Positions 44,061-53,935 of a DNA stretch of 64,000 nucleotides are shown one piece after another. The stretch comes from Deltaproteobacteria bacterium (GTDB lineage: Bacteria; Desulfobacterota; Syntrophia; Syntrophales; UBA5619), in the NCBI GenBank assembly GCA_021817825.1, contig JAKAFS010000001.1, positions 1 to 64,000 on the forward strand. Reading direction: 5' to 3'. A program made the position numbers and the translations under genes. Numbering within the stretch: the stretch's first letter is position 1; each line of letters begins with the position of its first letter. The notes under the pieces are model-generated. The model was not told where the DNA came from, searched no databases, and was given only the letters and a program-made list of their open reading frames with translations.

Positions 44061-44098
44061 AAAAGACCGCAACGGCCTGTGCCTCGGCCGCCGCGGTC
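44061..44098 (-). terminator. Intrinsic terminator ending the envelope operon
   Basis: On the minus strand a 13-bp stem (GACCGCGGCGGCC with GGCCGTTGCGGTC, two G-U pairs in RNA) is followed by TTTTC. It lies 36 bp after the LPP20-like gene. Confidence 0.7.
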
Positions 44099-44134
44099 CC
44101 GTGGTTCACACCTTTTTAATCGCCCCTGGCTTGC

Positions 44135-45007
44135 TCAGTCGAGAACGATCATCACCCGGCACTTCTTGAGGAATCCCAAATTGTCCCCGTTGGCGCGGAT
44201 CTTTTCGGCGTCGGCATTGGCGATCACGATGTCCGACCGCCCCGCCCCTTCGGTCTTGAGCCCCTTCACGCTCAGGGGGCTGTTCGTCACCCGGGCGTTG
44301 CTCTGCGCCGCCGTCAGATCGCGCGCGTAGCCGCTCATCCCCTGCTGCACGGCATACTCCCGCTCGACATTCTGGGAACCGTAGACCTCCTGCCCCTTCT
44401 CGTCGAGAATCCGGGGAGACATGGCCGGCCGGGCCTGAATCCCGCGGGCGTCCACCACGAGTCCCGTGAAAACCTCGCCCGGAGCCGCCGGCGCCTCGGG
44501 AGCCTTCGGCGGTGCTGTCGCCTTTTTCTTTTCCATGATCTTCGGAACGATCACGGCGGCGAAATTGCCGGAGATGGGCATCCGGACCGTCACCTCCACG
44601 GTGCCGTCGGACAGGTACTCCTGATTCACCGCCTTGGCCCCTTTGACGATCCCCTGGACCTGGGTATTGATCACGTCGCTTTCGACGGCAAAATCGCGGA
44701 CCGTGGTGGCCGAATTCACCCGAACGCCGTTGACCACCTCAAGGAGGTTGCGGTAGGCATCGACCTGGGCCGCCCGCAGAGCGTTGGGACGGGCCTGGGG
44801 CGTTCCGATCATCCGCTGCGGCGGGGCGCCGATCCCCACCGCCTCGATGTAGCCTTCGGTCCAGTTGACTGCCCCTTTGCTGCCGATCTGTTCGACGATC
44901 TGGGTCCATTCCGAACCGCTGACCTTCTCCTGAGCGACCGCCCCTCCGGCGATGCACAAGCCGATCGCCGCCGCGACTGCCGCGGCCGTCATAATCTTTA
45001 CCCTCAT
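44135..45007 (-). CDS. LPP20-family exported protein
   Basis: This 290-residue protein has a cleavable signal peptide (MRVKIMTAAAVAAAIGLCIA ... AQEK). The LPP20-type core follows: YIEAVGIGAPPQRM, NALRAAQVDAYRNLLEVVNG, AKAVNQEYLSDGTVEVTVRM. The second half has FTGLVVDARGIQARPAMSPR and a Cys near the end. LPP20 proteins are often with flagellar FlgP/FlgT or with CsgG-type proteins at the outer membrane. It is the last gene of the envelope operon before the terminator. ATG 45007 has AAGGAGG; an earlier start would not help. Confidence 0.82.
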   Translation of the reverse strand: MRVKIMTAAAVAAAIGLCIAGGAVAQEKVSGSEWTQIVEQIGSKGAVNWTEGYIEAVGIGAPPQRMIGTPQARPNALRAAQVDAYRNLLEVVNGVRVNSATTVRDFAVESDVINTQVQGIVKGAKAVNQEYLSDGTVEVTVRMPISGNFAAVIVPKIMEKKKATAPPKAPEAPAAPGEVFTGLVVDARGIQARPAMSPRILDEKGQEVYGSQNVEREYAVQQGMSGYARDLTAAQSNARVTNSPLSVKGLKTEGAGRSDIVIANADAEKIRANGDNLGFLKKCRVMIVLD

Positions 45008-45095
45008 AGATGCCTCCTTGATCATTTATTACCCTTCCCTATTGCAATTATCAATGCGCAATTGTCAATTACAAATCACGGGTCATTGGCCTTCG

Positions 45096-47861
45096 TCACT
45101 GTTCACTGCGAAAGGCCCGCTCTTCCGGGGCCGCCAGCCAGGGCTTGATCGTAATGGTTTTTTCCGGCTCTCCCCAGATCAGTGCCGCATCGGGCGGATC
45201 GGTTCCCCACCAGTTGTTCCGGGCGTCGATGCAGATCGAGGAAAATCCCTGGATCGACACCGCATTCCCGACAAAATTGTTATGATGCAGCGCCGGATTG
45301 GCCATGCCTACGCATTTGATCCCCCCCTCGCCGAGGTTGCCCTCGATGGTATTGAAAGCGATCGACGGGGCCGCATCGTTGCGGACGAAAATCCCTCCCT
45401 GGCTATTTTGGGCGATATGGCAGTGGGAAATCTCCGGGGTACCGAAATAGATGTCGAAGGCCGTCGTCGCATACCGGACGGCGCAATAGGAAAAGACGCT
45501 GTTCACCTTTGTCTTTTTCGCAAAGCGAACGGCGTTCAGATAGGCCCCGGGGGCCGGCGAGGCCCCGGAGGCGGTAAAGACGATGGGCCGTTCCTTTGTC
45601 CCCCGGGCGACGATTCCTCCGTCCTCCACGACGATAGCGGCGTTCCGTTCGTACTGGAGGACCACCCCGGGTTCGATATGGAGCACCGCCCCGTTGTCGA
45701 CGACCAGGTCTCCTTTGATGCGGTAGGGACTCTGGGAAAGGATCAAAAACCCGTCGGTCCGCAAAGGGCCGGAAAGGATCGATCCCAAGATCGGCAACAC
45801 CAGCGGTTTTCCTCCCGGAGAGGGGGCGTCCAGCACCGTGCGGACCTCCACCTTTCCCCGGATGCGGGCCAAGACCTCAAGCCCCTTGACGGCACCCCAC
45901 CAGTTGTCCGGGGCCGACAGGGCCTCACCGGTCGTCTCCCCGGCCAGATCGAAAGGGCCGTTGTCCGTCAGGTTGTTCCCGGCGATCGAGGTGGTCTGCG
46001 CCCCCGTCACGGCGATCCCGCCGCCCCGGTTCTTGGCCACGACATTGCGTTCGATGACGGGGGATGCGGATTTCACGACGATGCCCGTTCCGTCGTTGTC
46101 CTGGATGCGGTTTCCCGAGAGGACCGGTTTGGCCCCGCCTTCGATGAGGATCGCCGTTGATCCGTTCCTGTGGATCGTGTTGCCGGTGATCGACGGCGCC
46201 GAAAAGGCCCCCCGGATCGCCAGCGCCGTGGTGTTCTCCGTGAATTCGCCGGCCGCTACCTTCGGAGAAGCGGCCTCGCAATCCACCGCCACCGACGCCT
46301 TTTGGACCTGGACGAACTTGAGAAGATTGTCCTTCTCCTTGACGTTCGCAAAGCGGATCCCGGCCCAGCGCTCGGTCCCTTCCGCCGCGGCGAAGCGGAT
46401 GAGCCGTTCGCTGTCCCCCTGGGCCAAAAGCCGTCCTTCAACCACCAGCCCACCGCCGCGGGAGAGGATTTCGGTCCCCGGTTCGATCGTGAGCAGGGCC
46501 TGGTCCCTGACGACCACCTCTTTTTCAATCACATAGGGGCTGGCGCCGGCAAACCACGTCGTATCCGCCTCGATCGCCCCGCCGACGGGCGTCGGTCCCG
46601 GAGCGACGGCCATTCCCGCGACAACGCCCGAAGGGGCGCTTTCGTTCCCCGCCCGGTCCACCGCCGAGAGCTGGTAATAGTAGCGGCGGTCGTTTTCCAG
46701 CCCCTGGTCCCGGTATTCGCCGAATTCGGTTTTGACGATCTCCTGAAAGCCCGAAAGGGGCGTCTGGCTCCGGTAGAGACGATACCCCGCCAGGTCCGCA
46801 TCGGCCGACTTTTCCCAACTGAGCAGGACCAGTTTGTCCCGGCCGACGGTCTTGAGCCCCGTCGGCTTTTCCGGCGGCTTCGTATCGAGGGTGACCGTGC
46901 CCAGGGCATCCACCCATTCGGAGAAGTTGCCCGCATCGTCGGTCAGCCGCCCCGTGATCAGGGCATTTTCCACATTGTCGCCCGGCAGGACGCGGTAGAC
47001 GCCGAGGTAGGCCCCCGGCGCATCGGCCTGTTCCTGCATGTCGATCCTCTTCTTGAACTGACCGATATCGAAGGAGGCCCGCAGACGCGGCGTCCCCTGC
47101 AAGACGACCCGGATCTCGTCTCCCGCCTTTTTCGGCTGATTCTTGGTGTCCTGGATCAAAAGGCTGATCGTCGGCGGCCGCAGGGCCTCGGCCAGAGCCG
47201 GCACGGGGATCGTCTTGACCATCTCCCGGAAGAGGTCGTCGCAGGCCCGCAGCAACTGGATGTCCCGGAGGTTCATGGCCGTCGCAACCACCGTGGCGAC
47301 GATGCCGACGGGAGAGACGGACAGCCCCCCCTCGTGAATTCGGGCCACGTGCCGGCCGCTCCAGAGAAAATGGCCCGTCTTGGTCTCGTACATTCGCACC
47401 TCGGCCCCGACGGACACATTGGAGTACATGACGAGAAAGACCTTGTCGAAATCCGAAATCTCGCCGAAGACGACGGCATCGACGCCGAGGATCTCCCCCA
47501 GTTTCTGGGGCGAGGTCTTGAGGATCTGTTCCGGATCGGTCAGATCCGCCTTTTTGAGCAGATCGTCGATACGGGAAAGCTCCATGTCCCGGAAGGGAAG
47601 GGAACTGAAGTGGTTGTAAAAGCCGCGCCGGACCGTCTCGAAGCCCTGTTTGCTCCGGGACTGATCGAAGAAGGGAAGCACCGCGACGGTGTGGGGGCGG
47701 TTCTTCTCCATATAGGGATCGACCTGGTAGGTGCCCTCGAAAAGCGAGGTGATCTGGGGGACGATCACCGTGCTGTCCGTCACGACCGTGCAGCCGCAGA
47801 ACAGCAGGGTCAGCCACAGCGACAGGATGGTCCCCGCACCTTTTTTCCAGCTAGCTTTCAT
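45096..47861 (-). CDS. GNA1162-like (DUF799) lipoprotein fused to FN3 and right-handed beta-helix regions
   Basis: This 921-residue protein has a lipoprotein signal (LLFCGCTVV, lipid Cys about 24). Residues 40-235 resemble GNA1162/DUF799 with VAVLPFFDQSRSKQGFETVR and LGEILGVDAVVFGEISDFDK. One FN3 domain (about 335-420, KLVLLSWEKSADADLAGYRL) follows. Two beta-helix blocks (about 430-640 and 690-900) have repeat pieces such as AILIEGGAKPVLSGNRIQDN and GIFVRNDAAPSIAFNTIEGN. GNA1162 proteins sit on the outer membrane with CsgG partners. The attached FN3 and pectate-lyase-like solenoid are unusual and could bind polysaccharide or protein fibres. Confidence 0.8.
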   Translation of the reverse strand: MKASWKKGAGTILSLWLTLLFCGCTVVTDSTVIVPQITSLFEGTYQVDPYMEKNRPHTVAVLPFFDQSRSKQGFETVRRGFYNHFSSLPFRDMELSRIDDLLKKADLTDPEQILKTSPQKLGEILGVDAVVFGEISDFDKVFLVMYSNVSVGAEVRMYETKTGHFLWSGRHVARIHEGGLSVSPVGIVATVVATAMNLRDIQLLRACDDLFREMVKTIPVPALAEALRPPTISLLIQDTKNQPKKAGDEIRVVLQGTPRLRASFDIGQFKKRIDMQEQADAPGAYLGVYRVLPGDNVENALITGRLTDDAGNFSEWVDALGTVTLDTKPPEKPTGLKTVGRDKLVLLSWEKSADADLAGYRLYRSQTPLSGFQEIVKTEFGEYRDQGLENDRRYYYQLSAVDRAGNESAPSGVVAGMAVAPGPTPVGGAIEADTTWFAGASPYVIEKEVVVRDQALLTIEPGTEILSRGGGLVVEGRLLAQGDSERLIRFAAAEGTERWAGIRFANVKEKDNLLKFVQVQKASVAVDCEAASPKVAAGEFTENTTALAIRGAFSAPSITGNTIHRNGSTAILIEGGAKPVLSGNRIQDNDGTGIVVKSASPVIERNVVAKNRGGGIAVTGAQTTSIAGNNLTDNGPFDLAGETTGEALSAPDNWWGAVKGLEVLARIRGKVEVRTVLDAPSPGGKPLVLPILGSILSGPLRTDGFLILSQSPYRIKGDLVVDNGAVLHIEPGVVLQYERNAAIVVEDGGIVARGTKERPIVFTASGASPAPGAYLNAVRFAKKTKVNSVFSYCAVRYATTAFDIYFGTPEISHCHIAQNSQGGIFVRNDAAPSIAFNTIEGNLGEGGIKCVGMANPALHHNNFVGNAVSIQGFSSICIDARNNWWGTDPPDAALIWGEPEKTITIKPWLAAPEERAFRSEQ

Positions 47862-47898
47862 GGCACACCTCCCGCAAAGGTCCGTTCGCGCCCGCAGT

Positions 47899-48252
47899 TT
47901 ACTTCTCCGGTCCGCTGCTGTAAGGCATCGAGGTGTTCATACCGGCGCTTTCGACGAGGAATTCACCCTGGTTTTTCGGCGTATTCCGGATGAATTTATA
48001 GGGGATGGCGATCGGTTCCCGGCCCGTCGCCAGCGTCCGATAGGTGAGGACCCAAACGGCGCCCGTCACCGTATCGACGAGGTAAGCCTTGTCATCGCTG
48101 CCGGAAACCACCTGAAATTTGCCGTTTTCCAGGAGTTGCTTGTTGCTGTCGGCAGCCAGGGCGCCCGTCGCCAGAAAAAAGAACATCAATCCGGCGGCCC
48201 CTGTAGCCAGCCCCCGGGTCCATCGTCTCCCGCTCTTGCTGCGGTCTTGCAT
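47899..48252 (-). CDS. Small exported protein of the envelope operon (117 aa)
   Basis: ATG 48252 has GAGGGTAGCG upstream. The protein has an N-terminal signal (GLATGAAGLMFFFLATGALA) and a short mature domain with FQVVSGSDDKAYLVDTVTGA and VWVLTYRTL, a compact beta-type fold like a two-bladed repeat. It ends GMNTSMPYSSGPEK. No family is recognised. It lies between the two FN3 proteins with 29- and 37-bp gaps, so it belongs to the same unit. Confidence 0.75.
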   Translation of the reverse strand: MQDRSKSGRRWTRGLATGAAGLMFFFLATGALAADSNKQLLENGKFQVVSGSDDKAYLVDTVTGAVWVLTYRTLATGREPIAIPYKFIRNTPKNQGEFLVESAGMNTSMPYSSGPEK

Positions 48253-48281
48253 CGCTACCCTCCTGCCGTTCTGTGCTTTTC

Positions 48282-50549
48282 TCATAAGCCGGTCACCGTG
48301 ATCTCAGGACCCGGGATGCCTTCCAATCCGTCCTTGTCCGTGGCCGTCACGAGATAGGTTTTCGTTTTCCCTTTCGCCGGAGCGGGTTCGCTGAATTGCG
48401 TCGTCCCGACGGCGGCGATCTTCTCCATCCCGAAGAACTTCTTTTCGTAAACCGTGTACTGGGCAATGTCCGGCTCCGGAGAGGCTTTCCAGCTCAGAAC
48501 CGCCTTTCCCTCGCGCACCTGGACTTCCACCCCCTCGGTGCGCACCGGTCGGGCCTTGGTGCGGATCGTCACCGTCTCGGAAAAGGCGCTCGTGAGACCG
48601 TCCTTGTCTTCCGCCTGGAGCCGGTAACGGTAGACCGTGTCGTCCTTGAGTTCCCGGTCGACGGTTTCGGTCCCCGAAACCTTGGCGATCCGTTCGAAAT
48701 CGCCGCCCTGGTCGCCCGTCGCGCGGAAGAGGTGATAGGCAAGGATGTCCTTCTCGGAATTGGCCGTCCAACGCAAGGGAGCGCTCTTCGCCTTGGCCGA
48801 CTCCCCCTGGAGACCGGCCGGCGGCGAGGGACGCGGTTTGGTCGTGGCAGAGACCGGCGCCGTCGCCTCGCTTTCCACATCGACGCGGTTGTAGGTCACA
48901 AGCCGGTAATGATAGGCGGTCCCATCCTCCAGTTTGTCGAACCCGCGGGAATCGTCCCGATAGCGGTCCGTCGTCCGGCCGGGCAGGGTTTTGAGATGGA
49001 CGTACTGGGCCGCTTCTTTCTCCTTTGACCAGTAGAGCTTGTATCCCTCCACATCCGCGGCGGTCGAGGCCTTCCAGGTGAGCTCCACCTTTTTCACCAA
49101 ACCGCCCAGGACCTTGAGTTCTTCAGGCATCGCCGGCTTTCCGCGGGTCACCGCGGATACGACCGGCGAAGGCGAAGTCTCGCTGTCGCCCTCTTCGAAG
49201 GCCGTCACCCGGTAATAGTAGCGGATCTGATCCCCGAGACCTTCCTTGTCGGCAAACTCGACCTTCCGGTCGGGACCGCCCCCCGTCGCTTCCAGCCGCT
49301 TCACCCGGACGAAGTTCTCTTTTTCTTCTTTGCTTCGGTAGATATGGTAGCCGCGGAGAAAGGGCGAATCAACGGCGGGCCAGGAAAGGCGGATTTCGCG
49401 GATCAGATCGCCCTCGGCCGCCACAGCGGCGACGGAACGGGTGGTCATCCCGCGGATGGAGCGGGAAAAACCGCTCTCCATCTCCTTTTCGTTGTAGGCG
49501 GTGACCCGGTAATGGTATTCCTGCCCATCTTCCAGCCCCTTGTCCAGATAGGGAACCCTCTGGAGCCGATCGAGGGTCGCCGCCGCTTCTCCCGATCCCT
49601 GGGCCTCGATGTTGACCAGTTCGCGATAGGGTCCCTGTTCGGAACGGGACCGGTAGAGCCGATAGCCTTTGAGCGGCAGAGGATCCTCGCTGCCGGGGCC
49701 CGGCGACCAGAGGAGGGCAATGCCCTGCACATGCCCCTCGGCCTTGAGGATGACCGGCGGGTTCGGCGTTACGGCCGTCTTCGCCTCGACGACGGCGGAA
49801 AATTCGCTCTGCAACCCCCGGTCGTTATAGGCCCGGATCTTGTAGTAGTAGAGGGTATCCTTCTCGACGGTCTCGTCGAGGTATTCCGGTCGATTCGCCT
49901 GGGCGAGACGGGAAAAAGGTCCGGCCGCCGCCGTGGCTCGAAAGACCTCGTATCCCGCGGTCGACGATCCGGGGGCCGCTTCCCAGCTCAATTGAATATT
50001 CCGGCTTCCGGGCCGCTTGCGCACCTGCTGGGGGGCCGGAAAGACGCTCGCCTCGGCGCTCTTTTCCTTGCCGATCTGCTCTGTCGTGGCAGCGCGGATC
50101 TGCTGGCTGATCTTCTTCACCTCGGCCGCCAGCGCCGCGTCGCCCAGCACCGCGCTCCGGGTGTTGAGGATCGTCTTTTTCTGGTCCACCGTGACCGCCT
50201 TGCACTGAATCACGATCAGGGGCCCCTTTTTTTCCACCGTTCCGACGACGATCACATTGAGACCGAGCCGGGTGCCGATGTGGACGACGTTGTCCAGGTT
50301 GTCGTTCTGCTGGAGATCGTTCATGGACAAGAAGGCCTCCAGTTCCTTGCGGTCCAGGAGGGCCAAGGATTTGTCTTCAGTGAGCTGGCCGATGAGCATG
50401 TTCGTGACGGTGGCCCCGAGCCCCGAGGCATCCAGATTGACCGTCCCGAAATTGAACACCGAGATCCGCACCTGCGACTGAGCGGCCAGGGCCTGACCTG
50501 CCAGCAGGAACAGAAGAAAAACAGCGACAGCGATGGACCTCTTTCTCAT
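48282..50549 (-). CDS. CsgG/TolB-like N-terminal domain fused to six FN3-like domains
   Basis: This 755-residue protein has a cleaved signal (AVAVFLLFLLAGQALAAQ). Residues 27-165 form a CsgG-type domain (VRISVFNFGTVNLDASGLGA, SLALLDRKELEAFLSMND, LGLNVIVVGTVEKKGPLIVI). From residue 170 come six FN3-like domains of about 90 residues, each with a Y-x-V-F/L/Y-R motif and a YYYKIRAYN-like strand. The repeats suggest a long rod exposed outside. Partners are likely the CsgG-like and LPP20-like products. The fusion of a CsgG-like domain to an FN3 rod is unusual. Confidence 0.85.
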   Translation of the reverse strand: MRKRSIAVAVFLLFLLAGQALAAQSQVRISVFNFGTVNLDASGLGATVTNMLIGQLTEDKSLALLDRKELEAFLSMNDLQQNDNLDNVVHIGTRLGLNVIVVGTVEKKGPLIVIQCKAVTVDQKKTILNTRSAVLGDAALAAEVKKISQQIRAATTEQIGKEKSAEASVFPAPQQVRKRPGSRNIQLSWEAAPGSSTAGYEVFRATAAAGPFSRLAQANRPEYLDETVEKDTLYYYKIRAYNDRGLQSEFSAVVEAKTAVTPNPPVILKAEGHVQGIALLWSPGPGSEDPLPLKGYRLYRSRSEQGPYRELVNIEAQGSGEAAATLDRLQRVPYLDKGLEDGQEYHYRVTAYNEKEMESGFSRSIRGMTTRSVAAVAAEGDLIREIRLSWPAVDSPFLRGYHIYRSKEEKENFVRVKRLEATGGGPDRKVEFADKEGLGDQIRYYYRVTAFEEGDSETSPSPVVSAVTRGKPAMPEELKVLGGLVKKVELTWKASTAADVEGYKLYWSKEKEAAQYVHLKTLPGRTTDRYRDDSRGFDKLEDGTAYHYRLVTYNRVDVESEATAPVSATTKPRPSPPAGLQGESAKAKSAPLRWTANSEKDILAYHLFRATGDQGGDFERIAKVSGTETVDRELKDDTVYRYRLQAEDKDGLTSAFSETVTIRTKARPVRTEGVEVQVREGKAVLSWKASPEPDIAQYTVYEKKFFGMEKIAAVGTTQFSEPAPAKGKTKTYLVTATDKDGLEGIPGPEITVTGL

Positions 50550-50604
50550 GGGTCTCCTCCGGGATTGTCTTAAAGGGTGCTCCGATAAAACCAGCGCCTT
50601 TGCT

Positions 50605-52596
50605 TTAACGTTCCCGGATCAATTGGTCGATCGACTCGAGGGACTTTTGCGACACCGGCGTCGACATCCCTTTGAGCTTCTCGTCGTAGACCGCGTCGAT
50701 ATACTTCTCGATGGCCTGCTCGATGTTTCGGCGCTTTTGCTGCTGCTGGGCCTCATTGAAATAGGCCACTTCCAGGCTCTGATAATTCTTCAGAACGCTC
50801 TGTCCCATTTCGGAGACCTTGCCGTTCGTCAGTTCGTCGAGCACCTCGTCCTCGGTGGGCAATTCCAGCGGGTCATGGGGGATGCTGGCGACCGGCACGC
50901 CGTCCTGGTACTTGTCCTCCTTGACGAGGCGACCGGAGACCGTATTGGTGAAGACGTTCTCACCCGAGGAGGTATCCACCAGTTTGTAGGAGATCTCGAT
51001 CATGGCATTGATCTTGGCGGCGCCCTGCTTGTAGGAAATGAACTGATAATTGCGTTTCTTGATGGTCCGGGGCGGGGCCGACTTCATATCCTCGGCCGTC
51101 GGCTTCGGATTCAGCATCAGCCAGTCGGAAAATTCGGGATTGCGGACATCCTCTTCGTCGACCAGGACCCTGACCTGGCTGAGGCTCGGGGCATCGGTGG
51201 TCCTGGCGGAATAATGCAGAACATCCCCCATGATGAAGGTGTCGATTCCCCGCATCTTCCCTACATTCTGCGCCGCTTTCATATCCACGAGACCCGTCTG
51301 GCCCAGTTGCATCTCGCGCAGGATCGATTGCAGATTTTCCCGTTCGATGATCCGCAGATCGCCGCTGGCGTTCTTGTGCAGATAGGCGATCAGCTTGTTG
51401 GCGGCGATTTTTCCGGCGTCCTTGCTGCTGCTGGGACTGGAAAAATCGAAGACGGCCACCGATTTTTTGATCCGCTTGTTGATCAGGTCCCGGGTCTCCT
51501 GAAGCTTCTGAAAGAGCTCGGGGTAGTTCGGATTCAGGGATTCCACTTTCTGATACCAGATCAGGGCGTTGCCGAACAACTCGGCTTCCAGATACTTCTG
51601 TCCCCTTTCCATCAATTTGGCAGAAATGTTCTTGAGGAACTCCTTGAACATCGGATCGCCGGTCAACGACGGGCTGTACTCCCGGATCAGAGCAACCCGG
51701 TTCATGGCCCGGTAGAGATTTCCCTGGTTGGCCTGTTTGACCGCCTCATCGAAGAAAATCTGCCCCACCTTGACCTTCAGGGCATCCAGGCGGATCATCA
51801 GGGCCTTGTCGTCCGGCTGATATTCGCCTGCCTTTTCCAGGAGCTGGATGGCCCGCTCCCAGTTCTGGGCGATTTCCGCCTTGTCGGCTTCGCCGACAAA
51901 GTAGTCGCCGTTGTCCTTCGCCAGCGCCTCTTCATAGAGCCGGGCGATGTCCAGGTACTTCGGGTTGATCTCCATGCCCGTCTTGAAGGCCTGGGCCGCC
52001 ATCTTCCAGTCTTCCTGCTTTCCCAGGGCGATCCCCTGCTGGTAGAGGTTTTTCGCCCCTTCCTGCTCGGCCCGGACCAGTTTGCTCCCCGTGTCCTCGT
52101 ATCCGACATAGATCTGGTTGACCTGCCGGTATTTCGTCACCGCGGCCAGCCAGTCTTCCTTGAGGAGGTCCGCTTCCGCTTTTTCATAGAGCGCCTTTAC
52201 CTCGGCCCGGAGGGCATTGAGCCGGGTCGCGAGCTGATCGTGGAAGGCTTTGATCTGCGGATTGGCGGCGTCGAGGCCATAGGCGATATCCCCCTCCTTG
52301 GCCACCGCCTCAAGGGCGCGGAGATTCCTGTCCGGCGCCGCGGCCAGGGCCTGCTTGGCCTTTTCCAGATGCTGTTTGGCCGCCGCGCCTTTGGCATCCT
52401 GGAGCGCCTGCCGGTATTCAGCGTTTGCCGGATCCTCTTTGGTCGCCGATTCGAAATAACCGATAGCCTCCTCCCACCGGTTCTGCCCCACAAGATCCTG
52501 CCCCATCTTGTAGTTCTCGCTGACCGTACAACCGTACAGCAGCAACAGGACCGACATGCCGACCAAAGCGATTCGAACATTGCCTTGCTTCATCAC
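50605..52596 (-). CDS. TPR + CsgG/HfaB-family lipoprotein
   Basis: This 663-residue protein has a lipoprotein signal (MSVLLLLYGC, lipid Cys 23). It has TPR-type helical repeats at about residues 28-370 and a CsgG domain from about 385 (KKSVAVFDFSSPSSSKDAGK, GDLRIIERENLQSILREMQL, MRGIDTFIMGDVLHYSART). CsgG is the outer-membrane secretion pore for curli. This CsgG-related protein may form or support such a pore. It is second in the operon, 71 bp after the FlgT-like gene. No curli subunits (CsgA/B) are seen here. Confidence 0.85.
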   Translation of the reverse strand: MMKQGNVRIALVGMSVLLLLYGCTVSENYKMGQDLVGQNRWEEAIGYFESATKEDPANAEYRQALQDAKGAAAKQHLEKAKQALAAAPDRNLRALEAVAKEGDIAYGLDAANPQIKAFHDQLATRLNALRAEVKALYEKAEADLLKEDWLAAVTKYRQVNQIYVGYEDTGSKLVRAEQEGAKNLYQQGIALGKQEDWKMAAQAFKTGMEINPKYLDIARLYEEALAKDNGDYFVGEADKAEIAQNWERAIQLLEKAGEYQPDDKALMIRLDALKVKVGQIFFDEAVKQANQGNLYRAMNRVALIREYSPSLTGDPMFKEFLKNISAKLMERGQKYLEAELFGNALIWYQKVESLNPNYPELFQKLQETRDLINKRIKKSVAVFDFSSPSSSKDAGKIAANKLIAYLHKNASGDLRIIERENLQSILREMQLGQTGLVDMKAAQNVGKMRGIDTFIMGDVLHYSARTTDAPSLSQVRVLVDEEDVRNPEFSDWLMLNPKPTAEDMKSAPPRTIKKRNYQFISYKQGAAKINAMIEISYKLVDTSSGENVFTNTVSGRLVKEDKYQDGVPVASIPHDPLELPTEDEVLDELTNGKVSEMGQSVLKNYQSLEVAYFNEAQQQQKRRNIEQAIEKYIDAVYDEKLKGMSTPVSQKSLESIDQLIRER

Positions 52597-52667
52597 AGCC
52601 TCCAGTTTTCTCCCTTTGTCTTTGCCTCCCGCGTCCAGCGCGGCCAGGATTCATTACCTATTTTGCG

Positions 52668-53774
52668 TCACGGCAGCAATCCCACTTCCACCTTGTTGGC
52701 GGTGATTCCCAGGATTTTCACCTTTTTTTTATTGAGCGTCATCGCGGCCACATCGTCCGCCAGAGTCTGGCAATTTCCCCGCAGCTCCAGGTCCAGCTCC
52801 GCATGTCCCTTCTGGTAGGCTCGTTGGTGCAGCTCTTTGAAGCCCTTGACCTCCGCGGAGAGCAGATCCTTGAACTTCAGGAGGTCCTCATAGGAATCGA
52901 GTCCCGACACCAGCAGCTTCACGGTCATCGTGTTGACCAGTTCGGCGGACCACTTTTCCAGCACCTCCTCCAGCGTCTGCCGGGCGAGCTTCTCGGCCGC
53001 CTCCTCGGTGATCTTTTTGATGTCGCCTTTCATGCCCGGAGCCGATCCGGCCTTGCTGTCCGTCGTTATCACTTCGCCGGTGTCGCCGTTGATCACCTTC
53101 AGGGAGACGGTGACCTGATTGCGATGCATCTCGATGCCGCCCACATTGAAGGCATTGGCGGCCGTCTCGACCCCGCCGATCAGGACGACCTCGGCGCCGA
53201 ACTGACCCGCCAAACGGCTGGCGGACTTCGGGTCAAGGGGAAGTTCGCCGGAGCGCTCCTTGCGGAGACTCTGTCCATCGATGACCTTGAACCCCTTGCC
53301 GATGAAATAGCGGCTCATGGCCGCCTCGGCAATCGCATCCTTCTGGGCCTTCTCGGCGAACCACAGCATGAGCCGGGGCTTGGACTTTCGGGCCACGATC
53401 AGTTGGATCGCCGACAGACGGTCCTTCAGACGCGCCTCTCCCACGTCGGCGTCGATGACCACGGTCAGTCGGTCCTGTTGACGGCTCTCCGAAACGATCT
53501 TGTAGGTATTGACGAATCCCTTCGATTCCGAAAGGATCCGGTCCATCTTCAGTTGAAAATTCTCCACTTCCGAGGTGCTGGAGACCATCACCCCGGCGAC
53601 CTTTTCCACGGCGCTGCGCAACGCGGCGTCCAGCGCCTTGTCGCGGGCGATATCGGCCCGGTTGTTGATGACGATCGCCATCCCTTCCGCCCGAACCTTC
53701 GTCTGAGCCTGCACCGTCGCAAAGGAACAGAGCAGACCCGCCACTGCCGCCAGAATGACCCATGATTTCTTCAT
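52668..53774 (-). CDS. FlgT-like periplasmic protein (N- and middle-domain type)
   Basis: This 368-residue protein has a signal peptide (MKKSWVILAAVAGLLCSFAT, cleavage after VQA). The FlgT N-terminal motif is TKVRAEGMAIVINNRADIAR then ALRSAVEKVAGVMVSS. A TolB-like middle domain follows (LIVARKSKPRLMLWFAEKAQ, AEVVLIGGVETAANAFNVGG). FlgT stabilises the flagellar H-ring in vibrios, but no flagellar genes are near. It is the first gene of the envelope operon, behind a strong promoter. The start at 53774 is chosen because the upstream frame has no signal peptide. Confidence 0.82.
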   Translation of the reverse strand: MKKSWVILAAVAGLLCSFATVQAQTKVRAEGMAIVINNRADIARDKALDAALRSAVEKVAGVMVSSTSEVENFQLKMDRILSESKGFVNTYKIVSESRQQDRLTVVIDADVGEARLKDRLSAIQLIVARKSKPRLMLWFAEKAQKDAIAEAAMSRYFIGKGFKVIDGQSLRKERSGELPLDPKSASRLAGQFGAEVVLIGGVETAANAFNVGGIEMHRNQVTVSLKVINGDTGEVITTDSKAGSAPGMKGDIKKITEEAAEKLARQTLEEVLEKWSAELVNTMTVKLLVSGLDSYEDLLKFKDLLSAEVKGFKELHQRAYQKGHAELDLELRGNCQTLADDVAAMTLNKKKVKILGITANKVEVGLLP

Positions 53775-53906
53775 CTCGTCGACCCGCCACATTTTTTTTG
53801 CCGCACCAGCGGAGAGGATTCCGCTTTTTGCCGTCCCACTCCGGGAGAATGAAAAAGATTTGGCGCCAGCGAAGATGGCCGCCACAAAACAGGGAAATAC
53901 GGGAGG

Positions 53907-53935
53907 AATATACGGGAACGCCGACAAGCTGTCAA
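53907..53935 (-). promoter_or_regulatory. Strong sigma70-type promoter of the envelope operon
   Basis: On the minus strand a perfect TTGACA (-35), a 17-base spacer and TATATT (-10, 5 of 6) stand 133 bp upstream of the FlgT-like start. It is the best promoter in the window. Confidence 0.8.

Follow-up and report, generated by a model that had tools for sequence, protein, structure and literature searches.

A conserved six-gene envelope operon of Syntrophales combining FlgT-, FlgO/CsgG-, GNA1162- and FlgP/LPP20-type domains with TPR, FN3 and beta-helix modules

Introduction

The proteins of flagellar H-rings and basal disks are treated as motor accessories connected with torque. The H-ring of Vibrio is composed of FlgO, FlgP, and FlgT (PMC6375700), and according to a study of the Campylobacter basal disk, those members of the FlgP/LPP20 family that form rings have an insert separating the SHS2 helix from the second strand (PMC12222027). 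In the window (the whole stretch of 64,000 nt analyzed here), a preliminary description had pointed out six ORFs for envelope proteins of the FlgT, CsgG, GNA1162, and LPP20 families, with FN3 and beta-helix modules, enclosed by a strong promoter and an intrinsic terminator. All of these ORFs and signals are present in the sequence, and the named families were borne out by Pfam and profile searches.

Results

Layout of the operon

The six genes are co-directional on the minus strand, reading from 53774 to 44135 of the window, and form an operon of envelope proteins, as had been proposed:

53907..53935, minus strand: sigma-70-like promoter, TTGACA-17-TATATT, 11 of 12 consensus positions
52668..53774, minus strand: gene 1, FlgT-like, 368 aa; signal peptide and three domains (FlgT_N, middle, C-terminal)
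50605..52593, minus strand: gene 2, 662-aa outer-membrane lipoprotein, N-terminal TPR array and CsgG-like domain (Pfam CsgG, TPR)
48282..50549, minus strand: gene 3, 755-aa secreted protein, N-terminal CsgG/FlgO-like domain, then about six FN3 modules (Pfam fn3)
47899..48285, minus strand: gene 4, 128-aa exported protein, motif AYLVDTxTGAVWxLTxRxxxTGREPxAIPYKF
45096..47861, minus strand: gene 5, 921-aa outer-membrane lipoprotein, GNA1162 domain, FN3, and right-handed beta-helix (Pfam)
44135..45025, minus strand: gene 6, 296-aa periplasmic LPP20/FlgP-type protein without lipobox (profile matches)
∼44063..44100, minus strand: intrinsic terminator hairpin, 15-bp stem, loop of 8, TCTTTT; upstream of mutL

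Gene 1 starts ∼130 nt downstream of the promoter, and the spacing from gene 1 to gene 6 is 71 and 55 bases, an overlap, then 37 and 70 bases; an alternative GTG start of gene 2 lies at 52596. The terminator hairpin folds with −43 kcal/mol (z −3.5; 0 of 200 shuffles as good) and was not among the matches of a consensus terminator scan. The operon is flanked by rmlD, truA, and gltX upstream and by mutL and miaA downstream. A search of the region for RNA families found none. A known defence system was rejected, PADLOC returning no match.

Of the earlier statement that all products carry signal peptides or lipoboxes, export stood for all six; lipoboxes were found only in genes 2 and 5, with cysteines (Cys22 and Cys24, respectively) that are invariant in alignments, the former in 21 relatives. 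Genes 1, 3, 4, and 6 carry plain Sec-type signals (judged by eye). The preliminary description placed the FN3 and solenoid parts outside the cell; the default location of outer-membrane lipoproteins, and of proteins exported by Sec, is the periplasmic side.

Ring-type domains of genes 1, 6, and 3

Gene 1 matched Pfam FlgT_N (PF16548; 1e-12, 48.7 bits against a cut-off of 28.8). Structure predictions were based on shallow alignments of 10–11 rows, limited to some locus kinds; the AF2 model of gene 1 had a pLDDT of 74. Its best PDB matches in Foldseek were FlgT of the Vibrio LPHT ring (8z5n_0, E 3e-12) and FlgT 3w1e (8e-12), and they span the full chain (377–400 columns), so that the FlgT-like fold holds over the whole of gene 1 in the prediction. 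The whole-chain TM is low (0.33–0.36) because of a different, or a poorly predicted, arrangement of the domains. This modeled likeness to whole FlgT is new here. CsgG, GNA1162, and PelC follow in the Foldseek ranking, and PelBC is found as well; the profile of the N-domain also matches FlgP (1e-8).

Gene 6 stayed just under the Pfam cut-off for LPP20 (2.5e-5), and its family profile matched solved FlgP (9hmf, 2.8e-19; 8z5n_2, 6e-13), with near-ungapped alignments to FlgP 9hmf and 9yfg. Its C-terminal half resembles part of 5jir (1.6e-7), and no lipoprotein cysteine is conserved across 16 gene 6 sequences. The assignment of gene 6 as FlgP-type, predicted from these profiles, is new here. Both gene 1 and gene 6 align to FlgP across the SHS2 helix-to-strand insert, almost gap-free.

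The N-domain of gene 3 matched CsgG in 10 of 13 relatives and FlgO (PF17680) in 5 of 13, the best FlgO match being 1.4e-6 and one tested above the cut-off; in gene 3 of the window itself, FlgO was looked for without a match. That this domain is FlgO/CsgG-like, as its sequence relatives indicate, is new here as well. The remainder matched Pfam fn3 (5e-27). The preliminary description had counted six FN3-like domains: Pfam supports four significant stretches, whereas the number of six comes from reading the alignment. FN3 number also varies among relatives, with one module less in three (L054, L058, L062) and the last two missing from another (L071). Gene 4, which overlaps gene 3, has a core that is invariant in an alignment of 10 relatives; it gave no match in Pfam or NCBIfam and no convincing structure match.

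With a FlgT-type domain in gene 1, a FlgP-type domain in gene 6, and a FlgO-type domain in gene 3, the kinds of the H-ring trio would thus come together in one operon.

Conservation and genomic slot

Gene 2 was found in 49 of the 155 genomes of the order (28 of 53 genera) and in 25 of 394 genomes drawn evenly from the phylum. Across Syntrophales, the operon is found in this order repeatedly, with truA-rmlD on one side and mutL-miaA on the other, a slot common to many families. A scan of named genomes located the set in Syntrophaceae/Syntrophales and in MAGs of related Deltaproteobacteria, in most cases at this slot. Neighborhoods were mapped with per-gene HMMs. In Syntrophales, 21 loci have downstream sequence of 9 kb or more; every one of them has genes 1, 2, and 3 side by side, and 19 contain genes 5 and 6 as well. 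Nine loci from beyond Syntrophales have retained genes 2 and 3, eight of them together with gene 1, and most lack genes 5 and 6; the triad 1-2-3 extends into other Desulfobacterota families. The same gene order in other Desulfobacterota, which had been named as a check of the operon, was thereby found. As this order is kept over a divergence of ∼27–77% identity, the operon is far from a chance arrangement.

The set is missing from several relatives. In a member of the same genus (L089), the slot is empty and truA-rmlD-mutL-miaA are adjacent; two other operon-free genomes keep only a metallo-beta-lactamase-like gene before mutL. Conversely, genes 5 and 6 occupy the mutL slot without genes 1–3 in one locus (L096 3047-6922). 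Since some loci lack genes 5 and 6 and one has these two in the absence of genes 1–3, the six genes are not all obligate partners. The pattern of absence fits an ancestral unit that was lost as blocks; the alternative is that one lineage gained it and that it then spread by transfer. A metallo-beta-lactamase-fold ORF, absent from the window, lies between genes 3/4 and 5 in eight loci (family assignment checked for L021, by eye for the other seven):

L021 14819-15511, L045 10162-10935, L047 6145-6960, L048 10681-11451: metallo-beta-lactamase-fold gene in operon loci
L053 7681-8520, L055 7991-8818, L058 10560-11453, L062 10567-11340: metallo-beta-lactamase-fold gene in operon loci
L091 11288-12064, L092 11843-12613: metallo-beta-lactamase-fold gene in operon-free genomes

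Relation to flagella

The FlgT-like gene 1, FlgP-like gene 6, and FlgO-like N-domain of gene 3 are what would be expected if the operon provided H-ring or basal-disk proteins for the flagellum of its host, encoded apart from the flagellar cluster, and roughly every second operon genome has FlgI. FlgI is, however, present in 23 of 49 operon genomes compared with 38 of 106 others, which is no significant association (Fisher p 0.22), and those 38 genomes have FlgI without the operon. In 12 near-complete operon genomes lacking FlgI, FlhA was absent too, and in nine of 95–100% completeness, neither FlgI, FlhA, nor a rod or hook protein was found:

G018, G022, G046, G078, G082, G088, G105, G133, G137: operon genomes without FlgI, FlhA, or rod/hook proteins

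These nine flagellum-free genomes indicate that the operon does not need a flagellum. Together with the lack of association with FlgI, they led us to reject a flagellar accessory as the general role, and we consider this explanation highly improbable.

Some flagellar genes are retained in two other operon genomes (G010, G100) and in the window's own genome (G000). The latter contains ORFs resembling flagellin, FlgK, FlgL, FlgE, and FlgD, plus a rod protein (contigs C34, C35, C114; loci L031, L038, L039), and has no FlgI or FlhA. These genes may be a partial cluster, or reflect incomplete binning or contamination (5.6%).

Gene 5 and the polysaccharide alternative

Gene 5 matched Pfam GNA1162 (PF05643; 2.7e-16, 60.1 bits against a cut-off of 25.9) and Beta_helix (2e-24; a beta-helix of the NosD/CASH kind), and its profile matched solved GNA1162 (4hrv, 6e-14). 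One relative (L070 11148-13424) has a TPR C-terminus and only a short beta-helix part.

A TPR lipoprotein together with a right-handed beta-helix is reminiscent of AlgK/AlgG. The operon might, accordingly, serve the export or modification of a polysaccharide, with the TPR lipoprotein, a PelC-like ring, and the beta-helix arranged as in Pel or alginate machines; the PelBC/PelC matches of the gene 1 model, the kind of beta-helix in gene 5, and rmlD just upstream of the operon agree with this. Yet no glycosyltransferase, synthase, or barrel is encoded in the operon or the conserved slot, the Pel/Alg families gave no match above threshold in Pfam/NCBIfam, and rmlD accompanies truA with or without the operon (L089, L092). 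Such a role is therefore distinctly unlikely in our judgment.

A second operon version and other neighbors

Three members of the family contain a diverged paralogous set comprising two to three LPP20 genes, FlgT, giant proteins, and a TPR-CsgG lipoprotein:

L035 1-11262, L036 81-15687, L037 3-16651: diverged paralogous operon

The TPR-CsgG lipoprotein is 29–31% identical to gene 2, and the one or two giant proteins are of 1600–2300 aa with PKD/Ig/SprB/PASTA repeats. In L036, an RHS-repeat protein, truncated where the contig stops, comes after the set. One genome (G012) carries both operon versions. That the core is shared while the large repeat proteins change suggests that the former is a platform and the latter are its attachments.

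Just upstream of the FlgT/TPR-CsgG/FN3 triad, a compact FlgT-GNA1162-CsgG set was observed in two members of family f56, L065 (1-2726) and L067 (16294-19338). In Desulfobacterota, FecR-like and CHASE2-like proteins (recognized by eye) repeatedly lie beside CsgG/FlgT-type lipoprotein genes:

L070 13447-17622, L076 14266-17630, L065 3137-3901, L042 1-852: FecR-/CHASE2-like neighbors

Gene 2 and the channel question

Gene 2 matched Pfam CsgG (PF03783; 1.5e-10, 41.2 bits against a cut-off of 20.8), the match being limited to positions 30–104 of the 210 of the profile. In the model, the TPR part is well predicted (pLDDT 82–93) and the CsgG part is not (30–46, mostly <50); long paired strands at 450–484 and 510–563 reach a pLDDT of ∼59–79, with a poor stretch at 530–550. 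A face-hydrophobicity scan returned candidate strands for the first CsgG hairpin, and the region of the second hairpin is charged (VSGRLVKEDKYQDGVP). A profile search of solved structures (PDB) with the C-terminal region gave no CsgG match, hhalign against a single E. coli CsgG sequence aligned only a 43-column fragment, and only TPR proteins were among the matches listed by Foldseek for the model. A weak match to myxobacterial TraC (NCBIfam, 31.9 bits against a cut-off of 500) was taken as TPR similarity.

Gene 2, perhaps together with genes 3 and 5, could form a CsgG-type channel for export or display at the outer membrane, for which the FN3 and beta-helix proteins would be the surface cargo or a fiber. 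The CsgG-family match, the long paired strands of the model, and the second operon type, which has the core in common and couples it with giant PKD/Ig-repeat proteins and, on one contig, with an RHS-repeat protein, speak for this explanation. Against it stand the partial match and poor modeling of the CsgG domain, the charged second-hairpin region, and the fact that each of the large proteins has its own ring-type domain, which would be needless for a cargo. Moreover, nine operon-bearing genomes contain no curlin repeats, in agreement with the preliminary description, which had noted no curli subunit genes nearby; a curli system was rejected on this ground. A CsgG-type pore is thus supported neither by the gene 2 model, with its low-confidence CsgG part, nor by the second-hairpin region, and export or display appears unlikely, if less so than a polysaccharide machine.

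Discussion

Many envelope proteins contain FlgT_N, LPP20, CsgG, or GNA1162 domains, and a common fold is therefore no proof of a single complex. As the conserved unit is also present in flagellum-free relatives, the six-gene block probably builds an outer-membrane structure other than the flagellar ring, one that is as yet undescribed. The explanation we favor, and to which we give an even chance, is a flagellum-independent ring or disk scaffold of the outer membrane with FN3, TPR, and beta-helix arms; the complex, its ring, its orientation, and its task are all inferred. The gene products would form a single outer-membrane-associated envelope complex, in which domains of the H-ring/basal-disk kinds (FlgT-type in gene 1, FlgO/CsgG-type in gene 3, and FlgP-type in gene 6) would polymerize beneath the outer membrane into the ring or disk. 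The lipoproteins, TPR-CsgG (gene 2) and GNA1162-FN3-beta-helix (gene 5), would anchor this ring to the outer membrane, and the TPR, FN3, and beta-helix arms may extend across the periplasm, or as far as the cell surface, and hold or surround another structure.

A bolder version of the scaffold, which we hold more tentatively and put somewhat below even, is an outer-membrane ring machine assembled from H-ring domains and distributed widely among Syntrophales and other Desulfobacterota, whose ring would hold FN3 rods, TPR arms, and a beta-helix in place of the flagellum; this would be a non-flagellar, perhaps ancestral, use of H-ring/basal-disk proteins. The occurrence of the same three domain kinds in flagellum-free bacteria suggests that such rings had, or gained, another envelope function, which bears on the origin of flagellar outer rings. 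Syntrophic bacteria, which are important in anaerobic carbon turnover, would also possess an outer-membrane complex that has yet to be studied.

Literature searches (CsgG with FlgT/LPP20, GNA1162 sets, TPR/FN3 with CsgG, Syntrophus proteomes) returned no paper describing the set. The operon is best set apart from the H-ring, curli, and GNA1162 systems, since the features by which membership was tested, a flagellum and curlin, were not found to go with it. Like the H-ring of the Vibrio polar flagellum, it has a FlgT-type protein, a FlgP-type protein, and a FlgO/CsgG-like domain in one gene set; unlike there, the FlgO-like domain continues into FN3 repeats, TPR-CsgG and GNA1162-FN3-beta-helix lipoproteins are added, the FlgP-like gene 6 lacks a lipobox and has an additional C-terminal domain, and the operon is present in flagellum-free genomes. 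With the FlgP basal disk and Lpp20 of Campylobacter/Helicobacter, genes 1 and 6 share the SHS2-type LPP20 domain with its helix-to-strand insert, but the operon is neither flagellar nor an lpp20 operon, and gene 6 has no lipobox. A CsgG-family domain, as in the curli channel, is found in gene 2 and weakly in genes 3 and 5; in contrast to the channel, the match of gene 2 is partial, a TPR array precedes it, the second membrane hairpin is not evident, and operon genomes lack CsgA/CsgB-type curlin repeats. The GNA1162 (DUF799)-CsgG lipoprotein sets have the GNA1162 domain in common with gene 5, which differs in fusing it to FN3 and a beta-helix of 500 residues. PelC/PelB, finally, resemble the operon in the fold of the gene 1 middle domain and in the logic of TPR plus ring domain, but no polysaccharide synthase or barrel gene belongs to the operon. 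The individual families are known.
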